Shown here piece by piece: positions 7,187 through 22,030 of a stretch of 39,197 bases of DNA (the stretch's first letter is position 1; each line of letters begins with the position of its first letter). Source of the stretch: Streptomyces glaucescens (lineage in GTDB: Bacteria; Actinomycetota; Actinomycetes; Streptomycetales; Streptomycetaceae). Location of the stretch: contig NZ_MUND01000208.1 in the NCBI RefSeq assembly GCF_002154375.1, positions 1 through 39,197 of the forward strand, in the 5' to 3' direction. The position numbers and the translations under genes were made by a program. The notes under the pieces are model-generated. The model was not told the origin of the DNA. It searched no databases and was given only the letters and a program-made list of their open reading frames with translations.

Positions 7187-8425
7187 ATGACGGTCAGCCC
7201 TGCCCGTGAGACCGATGTCCTGCGCGCTCAGGATCCCGAGCTGGCCGAGCTGCTGCTCGGGGAGCTGACACGGCAGTCGACGACGCTCCAGCTGACGGCG
7301 GCGGAGAACTTCACCTCGCCCGCCGTGCTGGCCGCGCTCGGCTCCCCGCTCGCCAACAAGTACGCGGAGGGGTATCCGGGCAACCGCCACCACGGCGGCT
7401 GCGAGTTCGCCGACGTGGCCGAGCGGATCGCCGTGGACCGGGCGAAGGCGCTGTTCGGGGCCGAGCACGCCAATGTGCAGTCGCACTCCGGGTCGTCCGC
7501 CGTGCTCGCCGCCTACGCCGCGCTGCTGCGGCCCGGGGACACCGTGCTCGCCCTCGGACTGCAGTACGGGGGGCACCTCACGCACGGCTCGCCCGCGAAC
7601 TTCTCCGGCCGCTGGTTCGACTTCGTGGGCTACGGCGTCGACGGCGAGACCGGGCTCGTCGACCACCAGCAGGTGCGCGCCCTGGCCCGCAGCCGCCGGC
7701 CCAAGGCGATCGTGTGCGGGTCCACCGCCTATCCACGCCACCCCGACTACGCGCTCTTCCGTGAGATCGCCGACGAGGTCGGCGCCTACCTCATCGCCGA
7801 CGCCGCCCACCCGATCGGCCTGGTCGCCGGGGGAGCGGCGCCGACGCCGGTGCCGTACGCCGACATCGTGTGCGCCACCACCCACAAGGTGCTGCGGGGG
7901 CCGCGCGGCGGGATGATCCTGTGCGGCGGCGAGCTGGCCGAGCGCGTCGACCGGGCCGTCTTCCCGTTCACCCAGGGCGGCGCCCAGATGCACACCATCG
8001 CCGCGAAGGCGGTCGCGTTCGGCGAGGCGGCCGCACCGGCGTTCTCCGTGTACGCCCATCAGGTGGTCGCCAATGCGCGGGTCCTCGCGGCCGCGCTGGC
8101 CGCCGAGGGGCTGGTCGTCACCACCGGCGGCACGGACACGCACCTGATCACCGCCGACCCGTTCCCGCTGGGCGTCGACGGCCGCACCGCCCGCGGCCGG
8201 CTCGCCGCCGCCGGGATCGTCCTGGACTGCTGCGCCCTGCCGCACGGCGACCTGCGCGGCCTGCGCCTGGGCACGGCGGCGGTGACCACGCAGGGGATGA
8301 GGGAGGAGGAGATGCGGCGGATCGCCGTACTTCTCACGACCGCGCTGCGGGAGCCGACGCGGGGCAGGGCGGTGCGTGCAGAGGTGCAGGAACTCACCGG
8401 CGGATTTCCGCCCTATCCTGGCTGA
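7187..8425 (+). CDS. glyA: Serine hydroxymethyltransferase family protein (GlyA type)
   Basis: 412-aa fold-type I PLP enzyme. The family interconverts serine and glycine with tetrahydrofolate. ATG 7187 has CGGAG 6 nt upstream; a GTG at 7130 would add an unconvincing N-terminus. The N-terminal LTAAENFTSPAVL, the NKYAEGYPGNRHHGG motif and the PLP-lysine motif TTHKVLRGPRGG are clear family marks. Streptomyces carry more than one SHMT paralogue and this is the divergent copy in the prfA-atp interval, so the physiological substrate could differ (other beta-hydroxy amino acids). It lies 69 bp after the phosphatase-like gene, probably in the same transcription unit. Confidence 0.85.
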   Translation: MTVSPARETDVLRAQDPELAELLLGELTRQSTTLQLTAAENFTSPAVLAALGSPLANKYAEGYPGNRHHGGCEFADVAERIAVDRAKALFGAEHANVQSHSGSSAVLAAYAALLRPGDTVLALGLQYGGHLTHGSPANFSGRWFDFVGYGVDGETGLVDHQQVRALARSRRPKAIVCGSTAYPRHPDYALFREIADEVGAYLIADAAHPIGLVAGGAAPTPVPYADIVCATTHKVLRGPRGGMILCGGELAERVDRAVFPFTQGGAQMHTIAAKAVAFGEAAAPAFSVYAHQVVANARVLAAALAAEGLVVTTGGTDTHLITADPFPLGVDGRTARGRLAAAGIVLDCCALPHGDLRGLRLGTAAVTTQGMREEEMRRIAVLLTTALREPTRGRAVRAEVQELTGGFPPYPG

Positions 8426-8553
8426 ACGGGGTAGGCGAACGTCTGTGCACAGCCGCACGTGCAACCATCGTCGCTACCCGCAAGTCCCCACACATATGCG
8501 TGCCTCGCTAGGGTGTGGGACTGAGATGGCCAGCGAGACCTGTGGGGAAGCCC

Positions 8554-9894
8554 GTGCGTGAATACCTCCTGACGCTCTGCATCACGGCCGCGGTGACGTA
8601 CCTGCTGACCGGGCCGGTGCGGAAGTTCGCGATCGTTGCGGGAGCGATGCCGGAGATCCGGGCCCGGGACGTGCACCGGGAGCCGACTCCGCGGCTCGGC
8701 GGGATCGCGATGTTCTTCGGCCTGTGCGCGGGCCTGCTGGTCGCGGACCACCTCACCAACCTCCACCAGGTCTTCGAGAAGTCCAACGAACCCCGCGCGC
8801 TGCTCTCCGGAGCCGCGCTGATCTGGCTGATCGGCGTCCTGGACGACAAGTTCGAGATCGACGCCCTGATCAAGCTCGGCGGCCAGATGATCGCCGCCGG
8901 CGTGATGGTCATGCAGGGTCTGACGATCCTGTGGCTGCCCGTGCCGGGCGTCGGCACCGTCGCCCTCACCCAGTGGCAGGGCACGCTCCTCACCGTCGCC
9001 CTGGTCGTGATCACTATCAACGCGGTCAACTTCGTCGACGGGCTGGACGGGCTGGCCGCGGGCATGGTGTGCATCGCGTCCGCCGCGTTCTTCATGTACG
9101 CCTACCGCATCTGGTACTCGTACGGCATCGAGGCCGCCGCGCCCGCCAGCCTCTTCGCGGCCATCCTGATGGGCATGTGCCTGGGCTTCCTGCCGCACAA
9201 CATGCACCCGGCGCGGATCTTCATGGGCGACTCCGGCTCGATGCTGATCGGCCTCGTGCTGGCCGCCGGCGCCATCTCCGTGACCGGCCAGGTCGACCCG
9301 GACGTGATGAACCTGTTCTCCGGGTCCGAGCGCAACACCGTGCACCAGACGGTCCCCGTCTACATTCCGCTGCTGCTGCCGCTGACCATCATCGCGATCC
9401 CGGCCGCCGACCTGATCCTGGCGATCGTGCGCCGCACCTGGCGCGGCCAGTCGCCGTTCGCCGCGGACCGCGGGCACCTGCACCACCGGCTGCTGGAGAT
9501 CGGCCACTCGCACAGCCGCGCGGTGCTGATCATGTACTTCTGGTCGGCGCTGATCGCCTTCGGCGCGCTGGCGTACTCCGTGAACAGCGCGTCCATGTGG
9601 ATCGTACTGAGTGTCGTGGTACTCAGCGCGATCGGCCTCGTCCTGCTGCTGCTGCCCCGCTTCAGGCCGCGCGCGCCGCGCTGGATGGAGGCCTTCGTCC
9701 CGCCCCGCTACCGCCGTCGCCGGGTCGCACCTGCCGCGTCATCGGTGATCCGGTCCGCGGGGGGCGAGGCTTCAGCGGCGGGCGGGACCGCTGACGGCCA
9801 TGAGGGCGAGCAGCGCAGCACGCCGGTCGCGGCCGGTGTGGCGTCGGCCAACGGAGCGACCGCCATCGGCGCCCGTTCACATACGAGCCGCTGA
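8554..9894 (+). CDS. wecA: WecA/Rfe-type undecaprenyl-phosphate sugar-1-phosphate transferase
   Basis: 446-aa polytopic membrane enzyme of the MraY/WecA family. It links a UDP-HexNAc (probably GlcNAc) 1-phosphate to undecaprenyl phosphate and starts wall or surface glycan assembly. The start is GTG 8554, with TGTGGGGA upstream and the natural MREYLLTLC N-terminus; the longer reading from 8515 has no such support. Motifs in order are PTPRLGG, DDKFEIDALIKLGGQ, NFVDGLDGLAAG, FMGDSGSM and the HHRLLEIGHSHSR cytosolic loop that marks WecA-like members, with about ten membrane spans. The final ~70 residues form a low-complexity Ala/Gly/Arg cytosolic tail. It is the last conserved gene before the accessory island. 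Confidence 0.9.
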   Translation: MREYLLTLCITAAVTYLLTGPVRKFAIVAGAMPEIRARDVHREPTPRLGGIAMFFGLCAGLLVADHLTNLHQVFEKSNEPRALLSGAALIWLIGVLDDKFEIDALIKLGGQMIAAGVMVMQGLTILWLPVPGVGTVALTQWQGTLLTVALVVITINAVNFVDGLDGLAAGMVCIASAAFFMYAYRIWYSYGIEAAAPASLFAAILMGMCLGFLPHNMHPARIFMGDSGSMLIGLVLAAGAISVTGQVDPDVMNLFSGSERNTVHQTVPVYIPLLLPLTIIAIPAADLILAIVRRTWRGQSPFAADRGHLHHRLLEIGHSHSRAVLIMYFWSALIAFGALAYSVNSASMWIVLSVVVLSAIGLVLLLLPRFRPRAPRWMEAFVPPRYRRRRVAPAASSVIRSAGGEASAAGGTADGHEGEQRSTPVAAGVASANGATAIGARSHTSR

Positions 9895-9950
9895 CCCAAA
9901 GCCAGAGCATTCACATTCCGGAGTAGGCTCGGTCGCCCTTGCGTGACATT

Positions 9951-10643
9951 ATGCGCCGCCACTATGTTGAGGCGGTGGCTACTCAAATCATGTCCTCGCC
10001 GGAATTACTTTCCTATGTGCGTGACGTCTCCCTGCGGGACGACGAGATATTGCGCGGCCTGCGCGATCTGACCGGTGAACTGCCCATGGGGCAGGCCATG
10101 CAGGTCATGGCCGAGGAAGGGCAGTTGCTCGGTTTCCTGGTCGGTCTGACAGGTGCCCGTCAGGTGCTGGAGATCGGCACGTTCACCGGGTACAGCACGC
10201 TGTGCATGGCCCGCAGCCTCGCCCCGGGCGGACGCGTGGTCACCTGCGACATCAGCGACAAGTGGCCCGGCATCGCTCAGGAGTACTGGGCGAAGGCGGG
10301 CGTGTCGGACCGCATCGACGTTCGTATCGGGAATGCCGCCGAAACCCTTGCCGGACTGCTCGACGAAGAAAAGGCGGGCACCTTTGACTTCGCCTTCATC
10401 GACGCGGACAAGGCGAATTATCGTCGCTATTATGAATTGTCGCTCGAGCTGGTGAGGCCGGGCGGACTCGTCATCCTCGACAACACTCTGCTTTTTGGCC
10501 GGGTCATCGACCCGGAAGCCCAGGATCCCGACACGGTCGCGATCCGCGAGCTGAATTCCTTCCTGCACGACGACCATCGGGTGGAGATATCACTCCTCCC
10601 GATGGCCGATGGCATCACTCTGGTACGCAAGAAAGCATGCTGA
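9951..10643 (+). CDS. fkbG: FkbG-type O-methyltransferase of methoxymalonyl-ACP biosynthesis
   Basis: 230-aa class I SAM-dependent methyltransferase of the catechol/caffeoyl-CoA OMT type. In the methoxymalonyl pathway FkbG methylates the 2-hydroxyl of hydroxymalonyl-ACP. The SAM loop is [16 protein letters not shown], with [19 protein letters not shown] and [11 protein letters not shown] following in the order usual for the family. The start is uncertain: ATG 9951 is used here, while ATG 9990 is better spaced from GAGGCGG and TTG 9939 is also in frame. The first ~60 bases are less GC-rich than the rest. A TTA leucine codon lies at 10005-10007, inside the gene whichever start is right. It converges with fkbH, with 7 bp between the stops. 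Confidence 0.88.
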
Positions 10644-10650
10644 GCACCGG

Positions 10651-11757
10651 TCAGTGCACCGGATCCGGAGCGGCCACACGGTGGTCCGCGGCCAGGTCCG
10701 GTGCGCTGATCCGGATCGTCGCGTGCGGCTCACGAGGCGCCGGCACCAGGTGCAGGCGTCGTAGACCGTCCGCTCCCGCATCGGGCAGCGCGTCCTGGCA
10801 CGCACAGGACTCCTCGCCGAGACCGGCGAACCGGTAGGCGATCTCCATCATGCGGTTGCGCTCCGTGGGCCGGAAGTCGGCCACCAGATGGGCGCCCGCC
10901 CGGGCGGCCTGGTCGATCAGCCAGTTCAGGATCGCCGCACCCGCCCCGAACGACACCACCCGGCAGGACGTCGCCAGCAACTTGATGTGCCACACACCGG
11001 GCCGCGTTCGCAGCAGCATCACCCCGACCGCGCCGTGCGGACCGAAACGGTCGGCCATGGTCGTCACCAGCACCTCATGCCCGGGATCGGCCAGCAGCTC
11101 GCGCAGCGCTGCGTCGGAGTAGTGGACGCCCGTCGCGTTCATCTGGCTGGTGCGCAGCGTGAGCTCCTCCACGCGCGACAGTTGCTCCTCGGTCGCCCGG
11201 CCGATGCGCATGTCCAGCTCCAGCGAGCGCAGGAACTCCTCCGTCGGCCCGCGGAAAGCGGCCTGCTCCTCCTCACGCCGGAAGCCGGCCTGGTACATCT
11301 GGCGGCGCCGCCGCGCGTCCACGGTGACGTTCCGCGGACTGAACTCCGGCAGGTCCGCCAGCGCCGGCACCTGGTCGGCGGCGTAGCAGCGGACCTCCGG
11401 CAGGTGGAAAGAGACCTCGGCCCGCTCGGCGGGCTGGTCGTCCACGAAGGCGATGGTGCCGTGCGCGAACTTCAGCCGCTCCGCGATGTCCCGCACCGAG
11501 TCCGACTTCGGCCCCCACCCGATCCGCGGCAGCACGAAGTACTTGGCAAGGCCCAGCTCCTCCAGCTTGGCCCAGGCCAGGTCGTGGTCGTTCTTGCTGG
11601 CCACCGACTGCAGAATGCCCCGGGAGTCCAGCTCGATGATCAGCTCCCGCACGCCGTCCGGCGGGCGCACCGTGTCGCCCTCCGACAGCGTGCCCTGCCA
11701 GAGTGTGTTGTCCAGGTCCCAGACCAGGCACTTCACCGTGGTCGGCACGTCAGACAT
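10651..11757 (-). CDS. fkbH: FkbH-like glyceryl-ACP synthase (HAD family)
   Basis: 368-aa FkbH-like protein. The family takes the glyceryl unit of 1,3-bisphosphoglycerate, removes phosphate and loads it on the dedicated ACP, the first committed step to methoxymalonyl-ACP. The N-terminal HAD motif is VWDLDNTLW, with nucleophile Asp14 and Asp16. VASKND and AFVDDQPAERAEV are the further HAD motifs, and the C-terminal half is the GNAT-like acyltransferase part. ATG 11757 has GGAGG upstream. It is the last gene of the minus-strand fkbK-J-I-H operon, 18 bp after fkbI. Confidence 0.92.
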   Translation of the reverse strand: MSDVPTTVKCLVWDLDNTLWQGTLSEGDTVRPPDGVRELIIELDSRGILQSVASKNDHDLAWAKLEELGLAKYFVLPRIGWGPKSDSVRDIAERLKFAHGTIAFVDDQPAERAEVSFHLPEVRCYAADQVPALADLPEFSPRNVTVDARRRRQMYQAGFRREEEQAAFRGPTEEFLRSLELDMRIGRATEEQLSRVEELTLRTSQMNATGVHYSDAALRELLADPGHEVLVTTMADRFGPHGAVGVMLLRTRPGVWHIKLLATSCRVVSFGAGAAILNWLIDQAARAGAHLVADFRPTERNRMMEIAYRFAGLGEESCACQDALPDAGADGLRRLHLVPAPREPHATIRISAPDLAADHRVAAPDPVH

Positions 11758-11775
11758 GAAGATCCTCCAGGATGG

Positions 11776-12915
11776 TCACTGTGCCGTCGCCACGGCGTGC
11801 TGCGCCAGAATCAACTGGCAGATTTCGTTGCTGCCTTCGATGATCTCCATCAGCTTCGCGTCCCGGTACGCGCGCGCCACGACATGACCGTCCCGCGCCC
11901 CGGCCGAGGCCAGCACCTGCACGGCCGCCGCGGCACCGCGGGCCGCGTGCCCGGCGCTGACGTGCTTGGCCAGCACGGTCGCCACGACCTGATCCGGGGA
12001 ACCGGCGTCCCAGCACGCGCTGGCATGGGCGCACGCCTGGGCCGCGACCTGCTCGTCCGCGTACAGGTCGGCGAGGTGCCCCGCCACCAACTGGTGCTCG
12101 TGCAGCGGCTTGCCGAACTGCACCCGCGACGCGGCGTGCCGCGCCGCGGCGTGCCGGCAGGCGCGCAGGATGCCCACACACCCCCAGGCCACCGAGATAC
12201 GGCCGTAGGCGAGGGCGGTGGTGACCAGCAGCGGCAGCGGCATGCCCGGCGTGCCGAGCAGACTGGACAGCGGCAGCCGCACCGAGTCGAAGCGCACGTT
12301 CGCATGCCCGGCCGCACGGCAGCCCAGCGGATCGGCGACCCGCTCCACGTGCACGCCGGGTGCCGAGGCGGGCACCGCGACGACCGCCGCACCGCCTTCG
12401 CACTGCCCGAACACGACCAGCAGGTCCGCGTAGTGGGCCGCGGTCATCCACACCTTGTGGCCGGTGACCACGACGGAGTCGCCCGACACCTCGATCTTGG
12501 TGGTCATGGCGGTCACGTCGGAGCCGGCGCCGCTCTCACTGAAGCCGACCGCGGCCAGCTTGCCGCCGACCAGCTCCGGCAGCAGCGCGGCCGACTGGTC
12601 GGGGTTGGCCAGCCGCTGGATCGTCCAGGCGGCCATGCCCTGCGAGGTCATCACACTCCGCAGCGAGCTGCACAGACTGCCCGCGTGCGCCGTCAGCTCA
12701 CCGTTGTCCCGGCTGCTGAGGCCGAGTCCGCCCAGCTCACGGGCGACCTGTGCGCACAGCAACCCCCGCTCCCCGGCGGTGCGCAGCACCTCCAGGGGGA
12801 TCTCGCCGGACAGATCCCATGCCTCGGCCCGCCCGTCGACGAGGGAGTCGAGGAGAGCGAACCCGTCGGCGAGCCGGTCGCCGGCAGCGGGACCGCCGAC
12901 GTGCCTGTCAGGCAT
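11776..12915 (-). CDS. fkbI: FkbI-type acyl-CoA (acyl-ACP) dehydrogenase
   Basis: 379-aa acyl-CoA dehydrogenase fold flavoprotein. In this pathway it oxidises the 3-oxo (aldehyde) group of 2-hydroxy-3-oxopropionyl-ACP to give hydroxymalonyl-ACP. FAD/substrate motifs include AVGFSESGAGSDV and the ALAYGRISVAWG helix. The predicted catalytic base is Glu360 in IIEGSNEI near the C-terminus. Length is normal for the family. Its ATG overlaps the fkbJ stop by 8 bp, so it is translationally coupled to the carrier protein on which its substrate is bound. Confidence 0.9.
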   Translation of the reverse strand: MPDRHVGGPAAGDRLADGFALLDSLVDGRAEAWDLSGEIPLEVLRTAGERGLLCAQVARELGGLGLSSRDNGELTAHAGSLCSSLRSVMTSQGMAAWTIQRLANPDQSAALLPELVGGKLAAVGFSESGAGSDVTAMTTKIEVSGDSVVVTGHKVWMTAAHYADLLVVFGQCEGGAAVVAVPASAPGVHVERVADPLGCRAAGHANVRFDSVRLPLSSLLGTPGMPLPLLVTTALAYGRISVAWGCVGILRACRHAAARHAASRVQFGKPLHEHQLVAGHLADLYADEQVAAQACAHASACWDAGSPDQVVATVLAKHVSAGHAARGAAAAVQVLASAGARDGHVVARAYRDAKLMEIIEGSNEICQLILAQHAVATAQ

Positions 12916-13204
12916 GACCGACCGCGGGCGACCCGGCCCGCAGCCTCAGCACCAGCTCTGTCATGCGCTGCACGGTCCGGAAGTTGTCCAGCTTGAGGTC
13001 CGCGCCCACGATGGCGACCCGGTAGGTCTGTTCGAGGTGGACGACCAGTTCCATGGCGAACATGGAGGACACCAGACCGGAGGCGAACATGTCCTGGTCC
13101 GGCGTCAGCGTGGTCCTGGTCTTGGCCTCCAGGAAGCCCAGCAGCTCCCGCTCGATGGACTCGGCGCTCAACTCGGCGCCCTGCGCGGTCGATTCAGTGC
13201 TCAC
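12908..13204 (-). CDS. fkbJ: FkbJ-type acyl carrier protein
   Basis: 98-aa discrete ACP that carries the glyceryl, hydroxymalonyl and methoxymalonyl intermediates. The start is GTG 13204, with GAAAGG upstream. The phosphopantetheine site is Ser47 in the sequence GLVSSMFAMEL; the usual Asp before the serine is Ser here, which fits FkbJ-type ACPs (VSS or VNS) rather than PKS-module ACPs. It is the only carrier protein in the island, so it is unlikely also to serve as the starter-unit carrier. Confidence 0.9.
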   Translation of the reverse strand: MSTESTAQGAELSAESIERELLGFLEAKTRTTLTPDQDMFASGLVSSMFAMELVVHLEQTYRVAIVGADLKLDNFRTVQRMTELVLRLRAGSPAVGHA

Positions 13205-13267
13205 CGCAACACCTTTCGGCTATGGAAGTGACTTTCAGGGGTCTTCGACTCGGGATTCGCGCGTGTC

Positions 13268-14116
13268 TCAGTACGCGTAGAAGCCCCGGCCGGACTTGCG
13301 GCCGAGGTCACCCTGGCGGACCTTCTCCAGCAGCAGGTCGGCGGGCTCGCAGGAGGGGTCGCCGGTGCGTTCGTAGAGAACCTGGAGGGAGTCGGCCAGG
13401 TTGTCCAGGCCGATCAGGTCGGCGGTGCGCAGCGGGCCGGTCGGGTGCCCGAGGCAGCCCTCCATCAGCTCGTCCACCGCCTCCGCCGTCGCGGTGCCCT
13501 CACCGACGATCCGCGCCGCGGCGTTGATCATCGGATGCAGAAGCCGGCTCGTGACGAAGCCCGGCGCGTCCCGCACGATGACCGCCTTGCGGTTCAGCGC
13601 AGACAGCAGCTCGACCACGGCAGCCACGGCGGCGTCACCGGTCTGCGGGCCCCGGCTGACCTCGACCATCCTGATCAGGTACGACGGGTTCATGAAGTGC
13701 GTGCCGAGCAGTTCCTCGGGCCGGTCGACCGACCGGGCCAGCTCGGCGATGGGGATCCCGGACGTGTTGGAGATCAGTGGCGTCCCGGGCCGTACGGCCG
13801 CCGAGACCTCGGCCAGCACTTTGGCCTTCTCCGCCGGCAGTTCCACGATCGCCTCGATCACCGCGGTCGCGTTCGCCACGTCCGCCAGGGACACGCTGGT
13901 CGTCAGCTCGCCGGGTGCCGTGCCCGCGGGCAGCGCGCTCATGAGCTGAGCGTGCCGCAGCTGCTGTTCGATCCTGACGCGCGCCGCGCTCAGCGTCGTG
14001 TCGTCGACGTCCACCAGGACGACGGGGATGCCGTGTCCGAGCACCAGGGCAGCGATTCCCGAACCCATCACCCCCGCACCCACGATGGCGACTTGATGGG
14101 CTGTTGGCTCACTCAT
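13268..14116 (-). CDS. fkbK: FkbK-type 3-hydroxyacyl-CoA dehydrogenase
   Basis: 282-aa NAD-dependent dehydrogenase of the 3-hydroxybutyryl-CoA dehydrogenase family. In this cassette it oxidises the C3 hydroxyl of glyceryl-ACP. The NAD-binding loop is IVGAGVMGSGIA (Gly13, Gly15, Gly18), followed by ISNTSGIPI and GTHFMNPSYL with the catalytic His, and the C-terminal domain ends in the family motif GRKSGRGFYAY. ATG 14116 is used; a GTG at 14128 is in frame but sits on top of the GAAGGAG site. It is the first gene of the minus-strand operon, 63 bp ahead of fkbJ. A primary-metabolism paralogue lies at 36379-37227. Confidence 0.9.
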   Translation of the reverse strand: MSEPTAHQVAIVGAGVMGSGIAALVLGHGIPVVLVDVDDTTLSAARVRIEQQLRHAQLMSALPAGTAPGELTTSVSLADVANATAVIEAIVELPAEKAKVLAEVSAAVRPGTPLISNTSGIPIAELARSVDRPEELLGTHFMNPSYLIRMVEVSRGPQTGDAAVAAVVELLSALNRKAVIVRDAPGFVTSRLLHPMINAAARIVGEGTATAEAVDELMEGCLGHPTGPLRTADLIGLDNLADSLQVLYERTGDPSCEPADLLLEKVRQGDLGRKSGRGFYAY

Positions 14117-14387
14117 CGTGCCGGACACACTCCTTCACGCTCGCCAGGCCGGCTCGCTACGGCTGTCAGGGACGGGGGCATGCTCGTGTGCGCGGGCCAC
14201 GGTCGCGGTCATCACCGGCTGAGCGCCGAACGGCAACGGGCTTGCTGCACAAGTACGGGACAGGGGACGGGCGTTCACCGGGAGGAAGAGGCACCAGGAA
14301 CGGGCCACGCTCCAGGCAGGGCCGAGACCCCCCTGGGACCCTGTCGCCCACAACTGGGCGACCCGGCCGAGTCGGTGACGCGCAGTC
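14117..14387. other. Junction between the two halves of the island
   Basis: About 270 bp without a recognisable gene in any frame. It must hold the promoter of the fkbK-J-I-H operon (minus strand). Adenylation-domain homology on the plus strand begins abruptly near 14385-14391, and the same frame is closed by a TGA at 14376-14378. I found no PKS, NRPS or transposase remnant here and no clear repeat. Confidence 0.6.
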
Positions 14388-15377
14388 GGCGACCGGCTCT
14401 CCCAGACCTTCGACCTCACCTTCGACCTCTCCGTCTTCGACCTGTTCGCGGCCTGGAGCAGCGGCGCCACGGTCGTCGTGCCCGGCCGCGGCGACCTCCT
14501 CGCCCCCGCCCGGTTCGTCGCCAGGGAACGCATCACCCACTGGTTCTCCGTGCCCTCGGTGATCTCCCTCGCCCGACGGCTGCGCGGCCTGCCCCCCGGC
14601 TGCATGCCCACGCTGCGCTGGAGCCTGTTCTGCGGCGAACCCCTGACCACCGCCCAGGCCGAGGCCTGGCGGGCGGCCGCCGCCGGCAGCGTGCTGGAGA
14701 ACCTTTACGGCCCCACCGAACTGACCCTGAGCTGCACCCAGCACCGGCTGACGGACACCCCGGCCGAGCAACTGCCCGCGCACGGCACCGTGCCGATCGG
14801 GCGGCTCTACCCCGGCCTGGAACAGCTCGTCGTGGACGACGACGGCCGCCCCGCCGCCGAGGGCGAGCTGTGCGTCCGAGGCGTCCAGCGCTTCCCCGGC
14901 TACCTCGACCCCGCCGACAACGCCGGCCGCTTCCTGCGCTACGAACCCGGCGACGACCGCGCCACGGCCGTGGACGCCGTGGCGGACCCGGACGACCGGC
15001 TCTGGTACCGCACCGGTGACCGGGTACGCCTCGACGAGGACGGCCTCACCCACCTCGGCCGCCTGGACGACCAGGTCAAGGTGCGCGGCTACCGCCTGGA
15101 GCTCGCGGAGGTGGCGAGCGAACTGCGCGCCCATCCGGACATCCGCGACGCCGTCGCGCTCACCCTGCCCGGTCCACGCGACGAGACCCGCCTCGCAGCG
15201 GTCTGCACGGGAGACGACGTCGATCCCGCCGATGTCCTCGCCTCCCTGCGCGCCCGCCTGCCCGAGTACATGATCCCCAGCACCCTCACCGTGCTGGCGG
15301 ACCTGCCGCTGAACGCCAACGGAAAGATCGACCGCCGCGCCCTGCGGGACATGCTCACGACCGCCCGCGCACGCTGA
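14388..15377 (+). pseudogene. 5'-truncated amino-acid adenylation enzyme (VinM-like?)
   Basis: The C-terminal ~330 residues of an NRPS-type adenylation enzyme. Visible cores are A4 (SQTFDLTFDLSVFDLF), A5 (NLYGPTE), A7 (WYRTGDRV), A8 (GRLDDQVKVRGYR) and A10 (LPLNANGKIDRR). Everything before A4 is missing, including the A3 phosphate-binding loop. No start lies upstream of A4; the only plausible one, GTG 14478, falls after it. The product could not bind ATP normally. By eye the specificity code reads DLFSLCLLSK, which I cannot assign. In vicenistatin-type clusters VinM, a stand-alone adenylation enzyme, sits beside VinN and adds a protecting alanine to the starter; the position here fits that. 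The gene ends 19 bp before the VinN-like start. Confidence 0.85.
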
Positions 15378-15396
15378 AACTTTGGGGGAAACACGC

Positions 15397-16890
15397 TTGA
15401 ACGGTCAGACCATCCACTCCCTGCTCGACGCCGCGGTCCAGGAGACGCCCGACGCCCCGGCGATCCGGGATGCCGCCGGCCGCTGGACCTACCGCGAGCT
15501 GGACGCCGCCGCCCGGGCCTTCGCCCGCTGGCTTCGCCGCCAGGGCATCGGCCGCGGCGACCGCGTCGTCGTCCAGCTGCCGACCAGCCGGGAACTGGCC
15601 GCGATGTTCTACGGCACCTCCCGCGTCGGTGCCGTCTTCGTCCCGCTCAACCCGGCGATGAAGGAGTTCCACCTGCGCTCCGTCGTCGGCAACGCGGAAC
15701 CCAAGCTGGTCCTCACCGACGCCGCGGGCGCCCCGGTGCTGCGCCGCGTCAGCACCGCGCCGGTGCACGACATCGCCGACGTCGAGCCGGACCTGGTGCC
15801 GGCCGGCGAGGACCCCGGCGAGGCGGAGGCGGTCGCCCCCGACGATCTGGCCGTGCTGATCTACACCTCCGGCAGCACCGCTGCCCCCAAGGCGGTCATG
15901 TGCCCCCACGCCCAGGTGACCTTCGCCTGCCGCGCCCTGACCGAGGTGCTCGGCTACCGCCCGGACGACGTCGTCTTCTGCCGCTTCCCCATGTCCTGGG
16001 ACTACGGCCTGTGCAAGGTCCTGATGACCTGCGTCGCCCGCTGCGAGATCGTCCTCGCCGACGGCGAGTCCGACCTCCTGCTGCTCCGGCGCATGCGGGA
16101 GACCGGCGTGACGGTCGTACCGATCGTGCCGTCCCTCGCCACGATGATCGTCCGCCTGGCCGGCCGGGACGCCGGGCCCGTGCCGCCCGTGCGCATGTTC
16201 ACCAACACCGGCGCCGCGCTGCCCCAGAGCACCATCGACGCCCTGCGCACCCGTTTCCCCGGCGCCCGCGTCGTCCGGCAGTACGGCCAGACCGAGGCCA
16301 AACGCATCACGGTCATGCCGCCCGAGGCCGACCGGGAACGTCCCGACTCCGTCGGCCTGCCGCTGCCCGGCACCCGCGTGCTGATCCTGGACGACGACGG
16401 CAGTCCCCTGCCCGCCGGCGAGGTGGGGGAGATCGTCGCCACCGGCCCCCATGTGATGGCCGGCTACTGGCGCAACCCCGAGGACACCGCCCGCTCCTTC
16501 CGCCGGGACCCGCGCACCGGGGAGCCCTTGCTGCACACCGGCGACTACGGCTGGCTGGACGACGACGGCTACCTCTACTTCCAGGGCCGCCGCGACGACA
16601 TGTTCAAGCACAAGGGCTTCCGCATGAGCACCCTGGAGATCGAGAGCGCGGCCATGGACATCCCGGGCGTGCGGGCCGCCGCCGCGCTGCCGCCCACCGA
16701 CGGACACGGGCTCGCCCTGTTCGTGGAGAGCGACCTCGACGCCCACCAGGTCATCACCGAACTCACCCGGCGCCTCGAACTGCCCAAGGTGCCCACCGTC
16801 TGCCGGGTCCTGAAGGAGTTCCCGCTCACCCTGCACGGCAAGAACGCCCGCCGCGAGCTCGCGGCCCTGCTGGAGGGAAACGGCGCATGA
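15397..16890 (+). CDS. VinN-like beta-amino-acid adenylating enzyme (3-methylaspartate-ACP ligase)
   Basis: 497-aa stand-alone acyl/aminoacyl adenylating enzyme. GGGGGAA lies 6 nt before TTG 15397, so the in-frame TTG at 15382 is rejected. Cores present are A3 (YTSGSTAAPKAVM), A5 (YGQTE), A7 (LHTGDYGWLD), A8 (RRDDMFKHKGFRMSTLE) and the A10 lysine in LHGKNARREL, so it looks active. The pocket carries Asp202 (SWDYG) and Lys302-Arg303 (TEAKRI). From memory the VinN residues that bind the beta-amino and carboxylate groups of 3-methylaspartate are Asp230 and Lys330/Arg331, a constant offset of 28. Inferred role: activate 3-methylaspartate and load it on a starter ACP, which is not encoded here. 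It overlaps the next gene by 4 bp. Confidence 0.8.
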   Translation: MNGQTIHSLLDAAVQETPDAPAIRDAAGRWTYRELDAAARAFARWLRRQGIGRGDRVVVQLPTSRELAAMFYGTSRVGAVFVPLNPAMKEFHLRSVVGNAEPKLVLTDAAGAPVLRRVSTAPVHDIADVEPDLVPAGEDPGEAEAVAPDDLAVLIYTSGSTAAPKAVMCPHAQVTFACRALTEVLGYRPDDVVFCRFPMSWDYGLCKVLMTCVARCEIVLADGESDLLLLRRMRETGVTVVPIVPSLATMIVRLAGRDAGPVPPVRMFTNTGAALPQSTIDALRTRFPGARVVRQYGQTEAKRITVMPPEADRERPDSVGLPLPGTRVLILDDDGSPLPAGEVGEIVATGPHVMAGYWRNPEDTARSFRRDPRTGEPLLHTGDYGWLDDDGYLYFQGRRDDMFKHKGFRMSTLEIESAAMDIPGVRAAAALPPTDGHGLALFVESDLDAHQVITELTRRLELPKVPTVCRVLKEFPLTLHGKNARRELAALLEGNGA

Positions 16891-18146
16891 CCGACCGCAC
16901 CCGCCTGCGCGCACTGGCCGACGCGTACGGCACCCCCCTGTACGTCTACGACCTCGACCGCCTCGACGCCGCCCGGCGCGATCTGTTCGGCTGGCTGCCC
17001 GACGAGTTCGACGTCTTCTACGCCCTCAAGGCCAACCCGCACACCGATCTCGTCCAGGCCCTGCGCGAGGGCGACGGCCCCGGCTGCCGCGCCGAGATCA
17101 GCTCCACCGGAGAACTCGCCGCGGCCCTTCAGGCTGGCCACGACCCCGCGGACATCCTCTACACCGGGCCCGGCAAGACCGCCGGCGAACTGCGTGAGGC
17201 AATCGGACAGGGCGTCCGGCTCTTCTCCGCCGAATCGCTCACCGACCTGGAACGCATCGGTGAGGCCGCGCTGGCCCACGACACGGTCGCCGACTGCCTG
17301 CTGCGCGTCAACGACGAGACCGCCCGGGCGGCCACCGGCGTCCGGATGACCGGCCGCCCCACCCAGTTCGGCTTCGACAGCGAGACCATCGCCGGCCTCG
17401 CCCCCCGGCTGCGCGCGGTGCCGGGTACCTCACTGGCCGGTCTGCACCTGTTCACCCAGAGCAACGCCTCCGACGAGGCAGCGCTGATCGCCGAGTTCCG
17501 GCACACCATCGACACCGCCGCCCGCGTCGAGCGGGAACTCGGCGTGCCCCTGCGCCTGCTCGACATCGGCGGCGGCTTCGCGTCGCCGTACGGCCAGCAC
17601 GGCGAGCGCACGGCCTACCCCGCCCTGCGCGCCGCGCTCGAAACCGCCCTCGACACGCACTTCCCGCGCTGGCGGCAAGGCGCCCCCCGGCTCGCCGTCG
17701 AGTCGGGCCGCTACCTGGTGGGCGATTGCGGAACCCTGCTGGCGTCCGTCGGCAACGTCAAGACCGGCCGCGGCCGGACCTTCGTCGTCCTCGACGCCGG
17801 CATCAACACCTTCGGCGGACTGTCCGGCCTCGGCCGCATCCTTCCGGTGTCCGTCCGCATCGACTCCGACGCCGACGCCGGGCAGACGCAGCGGGTGACC
17901 CTCGCCGGGCCACTGTGCACCCCCGGCGACACCCTCGGCCGGGACGTCGAGGTCCCCGTCGGCCTCGGCCCCGGCGACCTCGTCGCCATCCCGAACACCG
18001 GAGCCTACGGCCCCACCGCCAGCCTCTTGATGTTCCTGGGCAGGCCCGCCCCGGCCGAGGCCGTGGTGCGCGCCGACGACGTGGTCTCCGTCTCCCGTAT
18101 CGAACACGTACGGACCTACCGAAAGGTGGAACGGGAACATGACTGA
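16887..18146 (+). CDS. VinO-like PLP-dependent decarboxylase (DapDC/ODC fold)
   Basis: 419-aa fold-type III decarboxylase related to diaminopimelate and ornithine decarboxylases. The PLP lysine is Lys48 in FYALKANPH. The glycine-rich phosphate loop LLDIGGGF and the C-terminal NTGAYGPTAS are in the expected places. In macrolactam clusters VinO-type members decarboxylate 3-methylaspartyl-ACP to 3-aminoisobutyryl-ACP. The overlap with the VinN-like gene (ATGA) and with the mutase S gene (8 bp) puts it in one operon with the enzymes that would make and activate that substrate. A free amino-acid decarboxylase cannot be excluded from sequence alone; the neighbours make the VinO role more likely. 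Confidence 0.8.
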   Translation: MTDRTRLRALADAYGTPLYVYDLDRLDAARRDLFGWLPDEFDVFYALKANPHTDLVQALREGDGPGCRAEISSTGELAAALQAGHDPADILYTGPGKTAGELREAIGQGVRLFSAESLTDLERIGEAALAHDTVADCLLRVNDETARAATGVRMTGRPTQFGFDSETIAGLAPRLRAVPGTSLAGLHLFTQSNASDEAALIAEFRHTIDTAARVERELGVPLRLLDIGGGFASPYGQHGERTAYPALRAALETALDTHFPRWRQGAPRLAVESGRYLVGDCGTLLASVGNVKTGRGRTFVVLDAGINTFGGLSGLGRILPVSVRIDSDADAGQTQRVTLAGPLCTPGDTLGRDVEVPVGLGPGDLVAIPNTGAYGPTASLLMFLGRPAPAEAVVRADDVVSVSRIEHVRTYRKVEREHD

Positions 18147-18612
18147 TGTGCGCACGACGGCCCGGCAGACCGTCGTGGTGACCTCGATGGCCTCCGACTC
18201 CCACACCTGGAACCTGGTGTTCCTCCAGCTGCTCCTGGAGGAACTCGGCTACGACGTCGTCAACCTCGGCCCCTGTGTCCCCGACGACCTGCTGGTCTCC
18301 CGCTGCGCCGCCGCGCGCCCGGCGTTCGTCGTCGTCAGCAGCGTAAACGGCCACGGGCACCAGGACGGGCTGCGCCTCATCGGGACGTTCCGCTCCCACC
18401 CCGACCTGGCCACCATCCCTGTGGTCATCGGCGGCAAGCTCGGTGTCGCCGGCCAGGACTCGGCCCGCGCGTGGGAGCTGCGGTCGGCCGGCTTCGACGA
18501 GGTCTTCGAGGAGGACACGGACCCGGCCACCGCCCTGGCGGCCTTCGCCGCCTCGCTTCCCCGGGCTGTGGCGCCGGACCGGCGCCCGGCCACGCTGCCC
18601 GCCGCCCGATGA
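18139..18612 (+). CDS. Glutamate (methylaspartate) mutase, small cobalamin-binding subunit S
   Basis: 157-aa B12-binding subunit of adenosylcobalamin-dependent glutamate mutase, which with subunit E rearranges L-glutamate to (2S,3S)-3-methylaspartate. It corresponds to clostridial GlmS and to the S subunits of vicenistatin and friulimicin clusters; the symbol is omitted to avoid confusion with glucosamine synthase. The cobalt-ligating His is His22 in the motif SDSHTWN. The usual DxHxxG motif therefore has Asn25 in the Gly position, probably a trait of the actinobacterial branch. The second B12-contact regions appear as VVVSSVNGHG and VIGGKLG. It overlaps both neighbours, consistent with strictly coupled synthesis of S and E. 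Confidence 0.88.
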   Translation: MTDVRTTARQTVVVTSMASDSHTWNLVFLQLLLEELGYDVVNLGPCVPDDLLVSRCAAARPAFVVVSSVNGHGHQDGLRLIGTFRSHPDLATIPVVIGGKLGVAGQDSARAWELRSAGFDEVFEEDTDPATALAAFAASLPRAVAPDRRPATLPAAR

Positions 18613-19868
18613 GCGATCCGCAGCAGACCGCCGGTTTCGGCGCGTACGTCAGGGCCGAGGCCGAGGCCGGCCGGCTCGTCGTCCAGCCGCGGATGGGATT
18701 CGGCGATCCGGCGACCATGCGCGCCGGGCTCGCGGCCACCCGGGCCGCAGCCGCCCGCACGGTCGGCACGATCACCGTCGACGCCCACACCCGGGTGGGT
18801 CACCTGGCGGCCGTCGAGAGCGCGCTGCGTGACGGGGTCGCACTCAACGGCTACCCCCTGGTCACTCACCCTGTGGCGACGACCGCCGAGGTGCTGGCCG
18901 GCATCCACGGCCCGGACTTCCCGGTTCAGGTGCGCCATGGTTCGGCAGACCCCCTCGGCATCTTCCGCGCCATGCTCGCCGTGGGCCTGGGCGCCACCGA
19001 GGGCGGGCCGGTCTCCTACTGCCTGCCCTACGGCCGTACGCCGCTTGTGGAGTCCGTCGACAACTGGGCGCGCGGCTGCGAGCTGCTCACCCGGCTCCGC
19101 GACCAGGGGCTGGAGCCGCACTTGGAGACCTTCGGCGGCTGCATGCTGGGGCAGCTGTGCCCACCCGGCCAGCTCGTGGCCATCAGCGTGCTGGAGGCTC
19201 TCTTCTTCGCCCAGCACGGCATCCGCAGCATCTCCGTCAGCTACGCCCAGCAGACCCACCCGGGGCAGGATCGCGAGGCGCTCGCGGCGCTGCGGCGGCT
19301 GTGCCGTGAGCTGCTGCCGGTGTCGGACTGGCACATCGTCGTCTACGCGTACATGGGCCTGTACCCGCAGACGCACGACGGTGCCTACCGCCTGCTGGGA
19401 CAGGCGGCCGAACTCGCCGTCGACGGCGGCGCGCAGCGGCTGATCGTCAAGACGGCCGCGGAGTCGCAGCGCATCCCCAGCATCGAGGTGAACGTCCGCG
19501 CTCTGGAATACGCGGCCTGGGCGGCCCGGCGGCCGCAGCTGCCGCCGGCCGGGGCCACCGCCGATCCGGAGGTGTATGAAGAGGCCTCGGCTCTGGTGGG
19601 CGCCGTTCTGGATCTTGACCCGGACGTGGGTCGCGCCCTGCTGCTGGCGTTCCGAAAGGGCTACCTCGACATCCCCTACTGTCTGCACCCCGACAACCGG
19701 GGCCGGACCCGCAGCTACATCGATGCTGACGGACGTCTGCGCTGGGAGTCCACCGGCGGGCTGCCGCTCACCGCCCTGCCACGGCCCCGCCGTCGGCGCT
19801 TCGGCTCGGCGGACCTCCTCGCGGACCTCTCTTACGTGCGTCGGAAGTTCGACGGTAGTGAACGTTAG
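18609..19868 (+). CDS. Glutamate (methylaspartate) mutase, large subunit E
   Basis: 419-aa catalytic TIM-barrel subunit, shorter than the ~480-aa clostridial GlmE. ATG 18609 overlaps the stop of subunit S (ATGA). Family features include VQPRMGFGDP near the N-terminus, the NGYPLVTHPV segment, VRHGSADPLGIF with the substrate-binding Arg region, TFGGCMLGQLCPP and the C-terminal YLDIPYCLHPDNRG block. Together with S and coenzyme B12 it supplies 3-methylaspartate to the VinN-like and VinO-like enzymes. A cobalamin adenosyltransferase gene that could renew the cofactor is encoded at 33384-33956. It is the last gene of the island. Confidence 0.9.
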   Translation: MSDPQQTAGFGAYVRAEAEAGRLVVQPRMGFGDPATMRAGLAATRAAAARTVGTITVDAHTRVGHLAAVESALRDGVALNGYPLVTHPVATTAEVLAGIHGPDFPVQVRHGSADPLGIFRAMLAVGLGATEGGPVSYCLPYGRTPLVESVDNWARGCELLTRLRDQGLEPHLETFGGCMLGQLCPPGQLVAISVLEALFFAQHGIRSISVSYAQQTHPGQDREALAALRRLCRELLPVSDWHIVVYAYMGLYPQTHDGAYRLLGQAAELAVDGGAQRLIVKTAAESQRIPSIEVNVRALEYAAWAARRPQLPPAGATADPEVYEEASALVGAVLDLDPDVGRALLLAFRKGYLDIPYCLHPDNRGRTRSYIDADGRLRWESTGGLPLTALPRPRRRRFGSADLLADLSYVRRKFDGSER

Positions 19869-20185
19869 TTCGAAATAGCGCTGAGGTAAGAATTTGACTA
19901 GAACGTTGCTGGATCATGGCGATGGGGGTGCGGCCTAAGTGTCGCAATACCGGACAAGTCCCTCATCGTCACGCTCTGACGAGCAAATTCAGCCTCATGT
20001 GTGACGCTGGGTGCGCCCTCGAGTAAAGACTGCATCAAATAGTTTGTGATACCGTTCACGAGAACCCCCGGGTAGAGCCGAAGGGCCGTGATGCGGCGGT
20101 CCGGCGGCGTGAGTTTCTGTCTCAGTCCGGGACTACGCTCGTCCATGACGACACCCCTGCCCCCTTTGAAAGCGGAGTTGCCGCC
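19869..20185. promoter_or_regulatory. Gap between the island and atpI: atp operon promoter region
   Basis: 317 bp without a supported gene. The first ~170 bp are less GC-rich than the flanking genes. There is no clear terminator hairpin after the mutase gene. The atpI promoter should lie in the second half, near the GGGACTACGCTCGTC segment around 20130, but I cannot fix its -35 and -10 boxes by eye. The right edge of the inserted island must also be within this stretch. Confidence 0.4.
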
Positions 20186-20623
20186 ATGCCGTCCAACGAT
20201 GTCCGAATCCTGGCTCAGGCCGCTGTGCCCACAGCTGCCGTCGGCGCCGTAGCCGCCGTCGCCAGCGGCGTGGTGGCCGGCGGCAAGGGAGCCATCGGGT
20301 CCATCGTGGCCGCGCTGGTGACGATCCTCTTCATGGGCATCGGCCTGCTGGTCCTCCAGCGCACTGCCAAATCGCTTCCGCACCTGTTCCAGGCGATGGG
20401 CCTGATGCTCTACGCGGCTCAGATCCTGCTGCTGTTCGTCTTCCTTGCGGCCTTCAAGAACACGTCGCTGTTCCACCCGCGGGCTTTCGCGTTCACGCTC
20501 ATCGCGACCACCCTGGTGTGGGTCGGCTCGCAGACGGTGGCGCACATGAAGTCCAAGATCCTTTATGTCGAACCGGACTCCGCCCAGGGCAGCAAGCCCG
20601 AGAAGACGGGCCCTTCATCGTGA
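20186..20623 (+). CDS. atpI: ATP synthase accessory protein I
   Basis: 145-aa small integral membrane protein with about four hydrophobic segments (for example VGAVAAVASGVVAGG and ILLLFVFLAAF) and a hydrophilic C-terminal tail. AtpI is the first gene of most bacterial atp operons and is thought to help assemble the c-ring or aid Mg2+ supply; it is not a structural subunit. The ATG at 20186 has a CGGAG site upstream. Assignment rests mainly on position and topology, because the family is weakly conserved. Confidence 0.82.
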   Translation: MPSNDVRILAQAAVPTAAVGAVAAVASGVVAGGKGAIGSIVAALVTILFMGIGLLVLQRTAKSLPHLFQAMGLMLYAAQILLLFVFLAAFKNTSLFHPRAFAFTLIATTLVWVGSQTVAHMKSKILYVEPDSAQGSKPEKTGPSS

Positions 20624-20848
20624 GGGGTAGGGCCGGGATAAGGACGCGTTCGACAAGCTGCTATCGTCCGGTGCCAACTGCGGCACTGCGGGCGCGGGCA
20701 TCCGAGCTGACGCCTGTTCCATCGCGAGGCTCGACGCCGAACCGCCGCCCTCACACCAGAAACACCAGTCCAGTGCCGAACCGCGGCCGCGTGCCGCGCC
20801 GACACAACGAGGTTGCCGTACCTATGCGCCACGCTGAAGGAGCCCGCG

Positions 20849-21670
20849 GTGAGTGCTGACCCGACGCAGGTGCTCGCCTTCGAGACCGACTGCCACATCT
20901 TCGACGGCTGTGGCTTCCCGGCTCCCGGCCTGCACTCGTTCCTGTTCGAACCCCTGTGGGGCGATGCGGACAGCAATCTGTACTTCAACAAGACGATGCT
21001 GCTGGCGCTGCTCGGCTCCGTCATCGTGGTCGGCTTCCTCTGGGCCGCCTTCAGCAAGCCGAAGGTCGTCCCGGGCAAGCTGCAGATGGTCGCCGAGGCG
21101 GGGTACGACTTCATCCGGCGCGGCATCGTCTACGAGACCCTCGGCAAGAAAGAGGGCGAGAAGTACGTCCCGCTGATGGTCTCGCTGTTCTTCTTCGTCT
21201 GGATGATGAACCTCTGGTCCATCATTCCGGTGGCCCAGTTCCCGGTGACGTCGATCATCGCGTACCCCGCGGTCCTGGCGGCGATCGTGTACGTCACGTG
21301 GATGACCATCACCTTCAAGCGGCACGGCTTCGTCGGGGGATTCAAGAACCTGACCGGCTACGACAAGTCGCTCGGCGCGGTGCTGCCTCTGGTCATGCTC
21401 ATCGAGTTCTTCTCGAACGTGTTCGTCCGGCCCTTCACGCACGCGGTCCGACTCTTCGCGAACATGTTCGCGGGCCACACGCTGCTGCTCCTCTTCACCA
21501 TCGCCAGCTGGTACCTGTTGAACGGCATCGGCATCGCCTACGCCGGCGTCTCGTTCGTGATGGTGATCCTGATGACGGCCTTCGAACTCTTCATCCAGGC
21601 CCTCCAGGCGTACGTGTTCGTGCTCCTGGCATGCACCTTCATTCAGGGCGCGCTCGCCGAGCACCACTGA
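20849..21670 (+). CDS. atpB: F1Fo ATP synthase subunit a
   Basis: 273-aa membrane subunit that forms the proton half-channels next to the c-ring. GTG 20849 has GAAGGAG 6 nt upstream; the longer reading from TTG 20813 lacks such a site. The essential arginine lies in the conserved helix FVRPFTHAVRLFANMFAGH, and the last helix has ELFIQALQAYVF. The 225-bp gap after atpI suggests that a second promoter could be present, but I could not define one. Confidence 0.95.
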   Translation: MSADPTQVLAFETDCHIFDGCGFPAPGLHSFLFEPLWGDADSNLYFNKTMLLALLGSVIVVGFLWAAFSKPKVVPGKLQMVAEAGYDFIRRGIVYETLGKKEGEKYVPLMVSLFFFVWMMNLWSIIPVAQFPVTSIIAYPAVLAAIVYVTWMTITFKRHGFVGGFKNLTGYDKSLGAVLPLVMLIEFFSNVFVRPFTHAVRLFANMFAGHTLLLLFTIASWYLLNGIGIAYAGVSFVMVILMTAFELFIQALQAYVFVLLACTFIQGALAEHH

Positions 21671-21728
21671 TCGCCCCGCATATCACCACCCCGTAGTCGT
21701 CCGGTGGCCGACCGCCACCGGTCCGTAA

Positions 21729-21986
<258 letters not shown>

Positions 21987-22030
21987 TCACCTCAGGCTGA
22001 CGACCAGCAATCCAGACGAAAGGCAACGAC

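Follow-up and report, generated by a model that had tools for sequence, protein, structure and literature searches.

Vicenistatin-type clusters for 3-aminoisobutyrate (3-Amp) encode enzymes of the VinN, VinO, VinH and VinI types and an A domain in the VinM position, and each of these is also found in the window, the 39,197-nucleotide stretch of Streptomyces glaucescens DNA analysed here. The window has the gene order A domain–vinN–vinO–mutS–mutE, as do many of the PKS-linked loci that we found. It differs from vicenistatin-type clusters in having no VinJ, VinK, VinL or PKS and in its truncated A domain. The second described system is the FK520/ansamitocin-type methoxymalonyl-ACP cassette (FkbG–K), all five genes of which are full length in the window; in contrast to that system, no methoxymalonyl-using PKS is evident in the draft genome of the strain, where a multimodular PKS with an AT for this product was not found.

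Gene content of the wecA–atpI interval

The sequence-only reading had placed gene sets for methoxymalonyl-ACP and for a 3-methylaspartate-derived unit between wecA and atpI. Domain matches and coordinates bear this out:

8515–9894, + strand: wecA-type glycosyltransferase, left flank (core genome); Pfam PF00953, TIGR02380-like but under the cut-off; syntenic with the DSM 15324 left arm
9939–10643, + strand: FkbG-type O-methyltransferase of the methoxymalonyl-ACP cassette, ATG at 9951; PF01596, 223.9 bits; syntenic with the DSM 15324 left arm
10651–11757, − strand: FkbH, HAD-type enzyme of methoxymalonyl-ACP formation; TIGR01686, 354.9 bits (cut-off 146.65)
11776–12915, − strand: FkbI-type acyl-CoA/acyl-ACP dehydrogenase; PF00441/02770/02771 and place in cassette
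12908–13204, − strand: FkbJ-type ACP; weak PF00550 match (22.3 bits versus a cut-off of 20.8) and place in cassette
13268–14128, − strand: FkbK-type 3-hydroxyacyl dehydrogenase, full length; PF02737/PF00725
14381–14385, no strand: deletion junction, with DSM 15324 left-arm homology running to 14380 and right-arm homology from 14382–14385
14382–15377, + strand: A domain in VinM position, 5′-truncated pseudogene; partial AMP-binding match and comparison with the DSM 15324 homologue
15382–16890, + strand: VinN-type 3-methylaspartate adenylation enzyme; best PDB sequence match 3WVN, 630.6 bits
16887–18146, + strand: VinO/BtrK-type PLP decarboxylase; Pfam and PDB sequence matches
18139–18612, + strand: glutamate mutase S subunit, VinH-type; by translation; amino acid identity 73% (DSM 15324) and 83% over 101 residues (S. 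tailanensis)
18609–19868, + strand: glutamate mutase E subunit, VinI-type; PF06368, 263.1 bits
20186–20623, + strand: atpI, first gene of the ATP synthase operon, right flank

We take PDB 3WVN, listed only as 'non-ribosomal peptide synthetase', to be VinN. The conserved wecA–atpI spacer starts at about 19884.

By sequence, the methoxymalonyl-ACP cassette is complete, with homologues of FkbG, H, I, J and K (FkbI, J and K assigned by domain and gene order), and the VinN, VinO and glutamate mutase genes of a putative set for carrier-bound 3-aminoisobutyrate are present. The claim that the island lacks a PKS also stands: no KS or AT Pfam match was obtained among the 20 window proteins scanned (ten from the island and flanks and ten others). 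The gene content was thus read correctly, but the first A domain is truncated rather than intact, and the island genes include no counterparts of VinJ, VinK or VinL and no remaining VinL-type or other discrete vin-type-operon ACP.

Relatives with PKS genes at the same position

Comparison of the wecA–atpI interval in related genomes revealed PKS genes at this spot in three of them: S. himastatinicus, on one contig; DSM 15324, on two; and ISL-11, which has the right arm with a KS. The single S. himastatinicus contig carries wecA, fkbGHIJK, the PKS, a vin-type operon and atpI. Its PKS has 10 DTACSS KS motifs and one KSQ, with frames interrupted by apparent frameshifts, and the interval that matches the gap in the window spans ∼82 kb. 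The DSM 15324 cluster comprises contigs C3 and C20 of G061, with no single contig spanning the whole. Like the window, this locus has wecA to the left, atpI to the right and the same end cassettes, with amino acid identities of 94–97% for FkbH (94%), FkbI, FkbK, the A domain, VinN and VinO, 89% for FkbG, 87.5% for FkbJ and 73–80% for the mutase; unlike the window, it has genes for a PKS, sugars and acyl transfer. At ∼400 bp past the left breakpoint, a PKS gene begins that extends beyond the contig end, and a KS is located on C20 ∼25 kb beyond the mutE of the right arm. In ISL-11, a KS lies on the same contig as the right arm, and a genome search did not find FkbH.

The right-hand operon of the parents contains additional genes, encoding a ChlB3/CerJ-like acyltransferase (DSM 15324), two acyl-CoA-dehydrogenase-like proteins and, in ISL-11 and S. 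tailanensis, a phosphopantetheinyl transferase. ACPs occur in the PKS-bearing parents, and the parent ORFs that were scanned gave no VinK- or VinJ-type Pfam match. Two operon proteins of 305 and 364 residues lack relatives in Pfam or PDB over the main part of each, the latter giving weak carrier-protein matches; an assignment of both as BtrH-like, made by eye, was dropped because no Pfam match supports it.

The junction and the truncated A domain

Window positions 8448–14380 are 91% identical to C3 of DSM 15324, near the start of that contig, and positions 14385–23000 are 86% identical to C20; the two matches meet at the junction. The remaining part of the A domain covers positions 245–384 of the 384 in the AMP-binding model and corresponds to residues 183–513 of the DSM 15324 homologue. 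The first ∼182 residues are gone, the ATP-binding motif TSGSTGTPKG is missing with them and the cut falls exactly at the junction, leaving no complete VinM-type A domain.

Among the origins that the sequence-only reading had considered, a deleted cluster is strongly supported by the relatives with a PKS at the same site, by arms that are colinear with the ends of that cluster and meet at one point, and by a gene cut there. We propose, with a probability of roughly 0.92, that the island is what remains, from either end, of a modular PKS cluster whose middle has been deleted. A large cluster would once have occupied the space between wecA and the ATP synthase operon, its left end making methoxymalonyl-ACP and its right end converting glutamate through 3-methylaspartate to a carrier-bound 3-aminoisobutyryl unit, and its middle would have been lost by an illegitimate join at ∼14381. 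The remnant probably delivers neither unit, because it has lost the PKS, the vin-side carriers, the acyltransferases and the N-terminal portion of the partner A domain; the remaining island enzymes would then be idle.

The same junction could be produced by an assembler that joined two arms in a strain that has the PKS. The assembly is a draft of 1135 contigs, and short reads cope poorly with repetitive PKS genes. However, at the join the arms have neither extended homology nor a repeat in common, an assembly rated 99.97% complete would have to lack ∼80 kb of PKS and sugar genes, for which no contig was found, and in NBRC 110028 a comparable loss lies within a contig of 927 kb. We therefore regard an artefact as highly improbable.

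Independent losses and the possibility of a PKS-free pathway

Two further genomes, NBRC 110028 and S. tailanensis TRM68348, resemble the window: next to the atp operon they retain portions of both end cassettes but no PKS (their genomes as a whole have 56 and 29 KS matches, respectively, which might include a displaced copy of the cluster). Their breakpoints differ from that of the window. In NBRC 110028, where the locus sits between glyA and wecA, both fkbK and vinN are truncated, with fkbK residue 131 joined to vinN residue 315. In S. tailanensis, fkbI residue 96 is joined to residue 122 of a carrier-protein gene, three more genes are absent and frame breaks are present in fkbG, fkbH, the A domain and vinN; this version is decaying.

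A single ancestral deletion common to the window and S. tailanensis is ruled out by gene retention and dS. Each retains genes that are absent from the other, and dS for the interior of the window locus is 0.08–0.13 relative to DSM 15324, compared with 0.28–0.37 relative to S. tailanensis for fkbH, fkbI, the A domain, vinN and vinO. Because each keeps genes that the other lost and the window interior is closer to the PKS-bearing DSM 15324, the losses are separate. NBRC 110028 pairs instead with S. himastatinicus, with equal dS in the cluster and flanks (0.12–0.24).

All window genes outside the junction are open. Relative to DSM 15324, dN/dS for the island genes is 0.15–0.26, except for mutS (0.53) and fkbJ (0.70), and only for fkbH (0.26 versus 0.22) and fkbJ (0.70 versus 0.51) is it higher than between DSM 15324 and S. 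himastatinicus, which both carry the PKS. Given open genes and dN/dS values mostly not above those between these two PKS-bearing genomes, there is no clear signal of decay in the island, and some residual function is possible. These observations, together with the survival of parts of both cassettes at three PKS-less loci, are what would be expected if the cassettes formed a functional PKS-free pathway to a small molecule such as a β-amino acid amide. Such a pathway is nevertheless very unlikely: the cassettes adjoin where the PKS-bearing cluster of relatives was cut, the breakpoints cut through genes and vary from locus to locus, truncation or frame breaks affect the other two loci, and the window is left with an A domain without its ATP-binding motif and no discrete vin-type ACP.

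No matching PKS found elsewhere in the draft genome

The locus might also act as a satellite that feeds a PKS encoded elsewhere, and the draft genome does contain 15 KS-type and 5 AT matches. The KS/AT loci that we looked at, however, include no multimodular macrolide or macrolactam PKS; contig C1102 holds an NRPS-PKS fragment and C190 one KS and one AT match. Searching the S. glaucescens genome with 20 kb of the DSM 15324 cluster, taken from its PKS/sugar end and covering only the C20 side, gave best-scoring matches of 72% and 69%, with no long match exceeding 72% and no sign of a second copy. FkbH is present once. Two further mutase loci lie on other contigs: the portion of C205 examined has no VinN, VinO or FkbH match, and C233, which ends inside mutE, has only A-domain matches, all below 30%. 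A second PKS cluster with complete copies of both cassettes, which on the sequence-only reading would have made the island a dead remnant, was not found. With its A domain truncated and VinJ, VinK and VinL counterparts missing, the island is extremely improbable as a satellite, and we rejected a partner PKS elsewhere on these searches.

The parental product

The sequence-only reading had assigned the 3-methylaspartate-derived unit as a macrolactam starter, which is probably wrong. Priming by a β-amino acid through a loading ACP was not observed: the window has no PKS, and in both parents read (S. himastatinicus and DSM 15324) the first PKS opens with a KSQ (motif DTGQSSS), on which grounds we rejected starter supply. 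The parents further depart from vicenistatin-type clusters in the ChlB3/CerJ-like, acyl-CoA-dehydrogenase-like and phosphopantetheinyl transferase genes of their operon. Because the PKSs are KSQ-first and a ChlB3/CerJ-like acyltransferase is encoded nearby, 3-aminoisobutyrate more likely decorated a macrolide than primed the PKS, and we infer that the parent product would be a glycosylated macrolide.

Subunit c of the adjacent ATP synthase

Outside the island, the atpE product departs from the commoner sequence near its essential Glu:

21747–21986, + strand: atpE (subunit c), GFVFCEAL versus the commoner GFAFCEAL

Three residues ahead of this Glu, 6/6 carriers of the cluster or its remnants have Val in place of the commoner Ala, as against 9 of 56 readable other genomes, the lineages not being independent. 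The position presumably corresponds to yeast Ala56, within the oligomycin site. In the window, the Val allele is combined with an atpB background that is otherwise of the Ala type. Val is likewise present in a seventh genome, G068, where the arrangement differs and a PKS gene begins ∼2.5 kb upstream of atpI; it is the only one of the nine Val non-carriers in the random set with a PKS at that spot. A strict pairing of Val with a neighbouring cluster failed, as 14 of 14 further Val genomes have ordinary wecA–atpI spacing.

Val would fit self-resistance to an ATP-synthase inhibitor, although relatedness of the carriers confounds this association. It is conceivable, but on balance doubtful, that the parental macrolide inhibits F-type ATP synthase, that the cluster adjoins the atp operon because target and cluster travel together, and that the window keeps an Ala-to-Val self-resistance allele after loss of its PKS.

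Implications

Literature searches combining methoxymalonyl with glutamate mutase, 3-methylaspartate, VinN or macrolactam returned no description of this locus, and searches on S. himastatinicus with methoxymalonyl and on remnant clusters beside ATP synthase found nothing on it. Reading the locus as a PKS-free pathway would mislead genome mining. As a deletion remnant, it offers a worked case of the death of a large cluster, with PKS-bearing, freshly cut and decaying versions across species, and raises the question of whether the product was aimed at the neighbouring ATP synthase. It further suggests a family of glycosylated macrolides in S. himastatinicus, DSM 15324 and ISL-11, of which the methoxymalonyl searches likewise gave no description; here a vicenistatin-type route to a precursor has apparently been redeployed for decoration.

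Gene content of the island

The window is the complete contig C261 of a draft genome of 8.43 Mb in 1135 contigs. Two cassettes of five genes each lie between wecA and atpI:

8515–9894, wecA, left flank
Left-hand island gene, + strand: fkbG
Left-hand island genes, all − strand: fkbH, fkbI, fkbJ, fkbK
Right-hand island genes, all + strand: A domain, VinN-type A domain, VinO/BtrK-type decarboxylase, glutamate mutase S (mutS), glutamate mutase E (mutE)
20186–20623, atpI, right flank

The sequence-only reading described both cassettes correctly, and no KS or AT domain occurs among 20 scanned window proteins, but only part of the first A domain remains. Homology to the Streptomyces sp. DSM 15324 protein begins at 14382 and covers residues 183–513 of the latter, so that the N-terminal part carrying the TSGSTGTPKG motif is absent. 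A sequence search found the closest relatives of mutE within Streptomyces.

It had also been suggested that the island may be a satellite locus feeding a PKS elsewhere. The draft genome contains 15 KS-type and 5 AT matches, among them the KS part of an NRPS–PKS protein on the short contig C1102 and one match of each type on C190. Searching this genome with 20 kb of DNA taken from the PKS/sugar end of the DSM 15324 cluster gave no long match above 72%, and FkbH is present in a single copy. The two other mutase loci (C205 and C233) show no VinO or FkbH match within the available stretches; C233, which ends inside mutE, has A-domain matches only, below 30%. These searches thus revealed no recipient for the island in the draft genome.

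Comparison with PKS-bearing relatives

Window positions 8448–14380 align with DSM 15324 contig C3 (91.1% identity) and positions 14385–23000 with its contig C20 (86.3%). Only a few bases separate the two homologies at the junction, and no extended repeat common to both is present in the compared letters. In the left arm of DSM 15324 a PKS starts ∼400 bp past the breakpoint, with a KS-first protein (DTGQSSS) cut by the contig end. Ahead of its right arm lies a fuller operon and, ∼25 kb upstream of mutE, a KS. The scanned genes of this strain also encode two glycosyltransferase-type proteins, an NDP-hexose 2,3-dehydratase, a 4,6-dehydratase-type protein, a nucleotidyltransferase, a hexapeptide transferase and a KAS III-like protein whose top PDB matches are two 3-oxoacyl-ACP synthases, followed by ChlB3 and CerJ.

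S. himastatinicus carries the locus on a single contig, in the order glyA, fkbG, fkbH–K, PKS genes (10 DTACSS KS motifs and one KSQ, in frames interrupted by apparent frameshifts), glycosyltransferase, sugar and KAS III-like genes (assigned by eye), carrier-protein genes, two acyl-CoA-dehydrogenase-like genes, A domain, vinN, vinO, mutase, wecA and atpI. By coordinate arithmetic, ∼82 kb in this species separates the two points joined in the window. In a third PKS-bearing relative, ISL-11, KS and the right arm share one contig, and no FkbH was found in the genome. A 4′-phosphopantetheinyl transferase is present in ISL-11 and S. tailanensis. The parental operon (L036/L157, L041, L042) also encodes two conserved proteins, of 305 and 364 aa in DSM 15324, whose main parts have no Pfam or PDB relatives; the longer ends in a C-terminal carrier domain.

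Insertion site

Of 59 other Streptomyces stretches, 58 have no more than 1.2 kb between the end of wecA and atpI, the exception being L265 of genome G068. The cluster occupies this interval in the window, in DSM 15324 (from its two contigs) and in S. tailanensis, and the glyA–wecA interval in S. himastatinicus and NBRC 110028; in ISL-11, too, wecA is on the atpI side. The side of wecA thus varies by species (window 8425–8515, 19868–20186; L041, L159), always at tidy gene borders. G068 has a second type of PKS insertion at the atpI site: a divergent modular PKS gene starting ∼2.5 kb upstream of atpI (L265/L324; G068:C14:1–12000), in a stretch without wecA.

Separate losses of PKS genes from the locus

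A mutE search of genome contigs returned 266 relatives, from which 80 loci were kept. At least five of these have atpI and atpB near mutE (DSM 15324, S. tailanensis, NBRC 110028, S. himastatinicus and ISL-11), and early contig ends (e.g. L037) may conceal further carriers. When 392 Streptomyces genomes were queried with mutE, 40 matched at E ≤ 1e-160; among the 30 of these with a fetched locus, wecA or atpI lies near mutE only in the window and in G209, whose locus resembles that of S. himastatinicus.

PKS genes are seen at the locus in three of the six carriers and not in the other three. In NBRC 110028, fkbK residue 131 is fused to vinN residue 315 within a 927-kb contig. In S. tailanensis, fkbI residue 96 is fused to residue 122 of a carrier-protein gene, no match above 45% is seen for the carrier protein that follows or for either dehydrogenase-like gene, and the mutS end and mutE start are lost. 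Its fkbG, fkbH, A domain and vinN contain frame breaks, which could conceivably include sequencing errors. This locus (L158), with three losses inside it in addition to the broken frames, is the same cluster visibly decaying.

The window and S. tailanensis each retain genes missing from the other, and the window interior (fkbH to vinO) is closer to PKS-bearing DSM 15324 (dS 0.08–0.13) than fkbH, fkbI, A domain, vinN and vinO are to S. tailanensis (dS 0.28–0.37); their losses are therefore separate. Trees of wecA and of atpB both pair NBRC 110028 with S. himastatinicus, and dS between these two is equal in cluster and flanks (0.12–0.24), so the NBRC 110028 loss postdates their split.

Age of the deletion

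Between the window and DSM 15324, glyA, wecA, fkbG, mutS, mutE, atpI and atpB show dS of 0.35–0.73. In divergence the cluster ends match the core genome and the interior alone is young, as would be expected if recombination had overwritten it after the lineage already carried the cluster. Identity shows the same recombination mosaic, at ∼90–97% in the interior (window positions 10500–18100) and ∼75–91% in the island ends and flanks. The dN/dS of the truncated A domain is 0.20, and the cut is therefore recent. Values for fkbJ (0.70) and mutS (0.53) are higher, as they also are when DSM 15324 is compared with S. himastatinicus (0.51 and 0.58).

ATP synthase subunit c

Subunit c reads GFV(F/L)CEAL in all six carriers, with Val three residues before the essential Glu. 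Among 59 non-carriers, three are unreadable, and the other 56 have GFV (9) or GFA (47); the enrichment has p ∼8e-5 by hand arithmetic that ignores relatedness. The atpB tree places the window in a group of 22 with good support, in which none of the remaining 21 rows shows Val (one unreadable), and the other carriers, all nine Val non-carriers and eight Ala rows form another, weakly supported group. One Val non-carrier is G068, with its divergent PKS gene. Among the 30 subunit c loci closest to that of DSM 15324 (from 392 genomes), 22 have Val. All 14 newly examined ones have an ordinary wecA–atpI interval, so that 22 of 23 Val non-carriers examined, several closely related, lack a cluster there. 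G220 has two subunit c matches, the only such row noticed among the 392 genomes tabulated.

The oligomycin site on subunit c lies on the face of the c-ring, at the proton half-channel (PMC4415626), and F-ATPases are a target of venturicidin macrolides (PMC8249445). A link between Val-type subunit c and a cluster product acting on ATP synthase is therefore chemically sensible, and unproven.

Proposed chemistry

In the vicenistatin route, as given in PMC11284099, VinN puts 3-methylaspartate on VinL, followed by decarboxylation by VinO and addition of alanine by VinM; VinK passes the unit to the PKS and VinJ later removes the alanine. Here the first PKS begins with KSQ in both parents read, and would be self-priming; neither VinK nor VinJ was seen among the scanned parent genes. 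With the ChlB3/CerJ-like protein and discrete carrier proteins added to these features, the gene content of the parents is better read as attaching the 3-aminoisobutyryl-derived unit to a sugar or hydroxyl. In the window, both precursor chains would dead-end.
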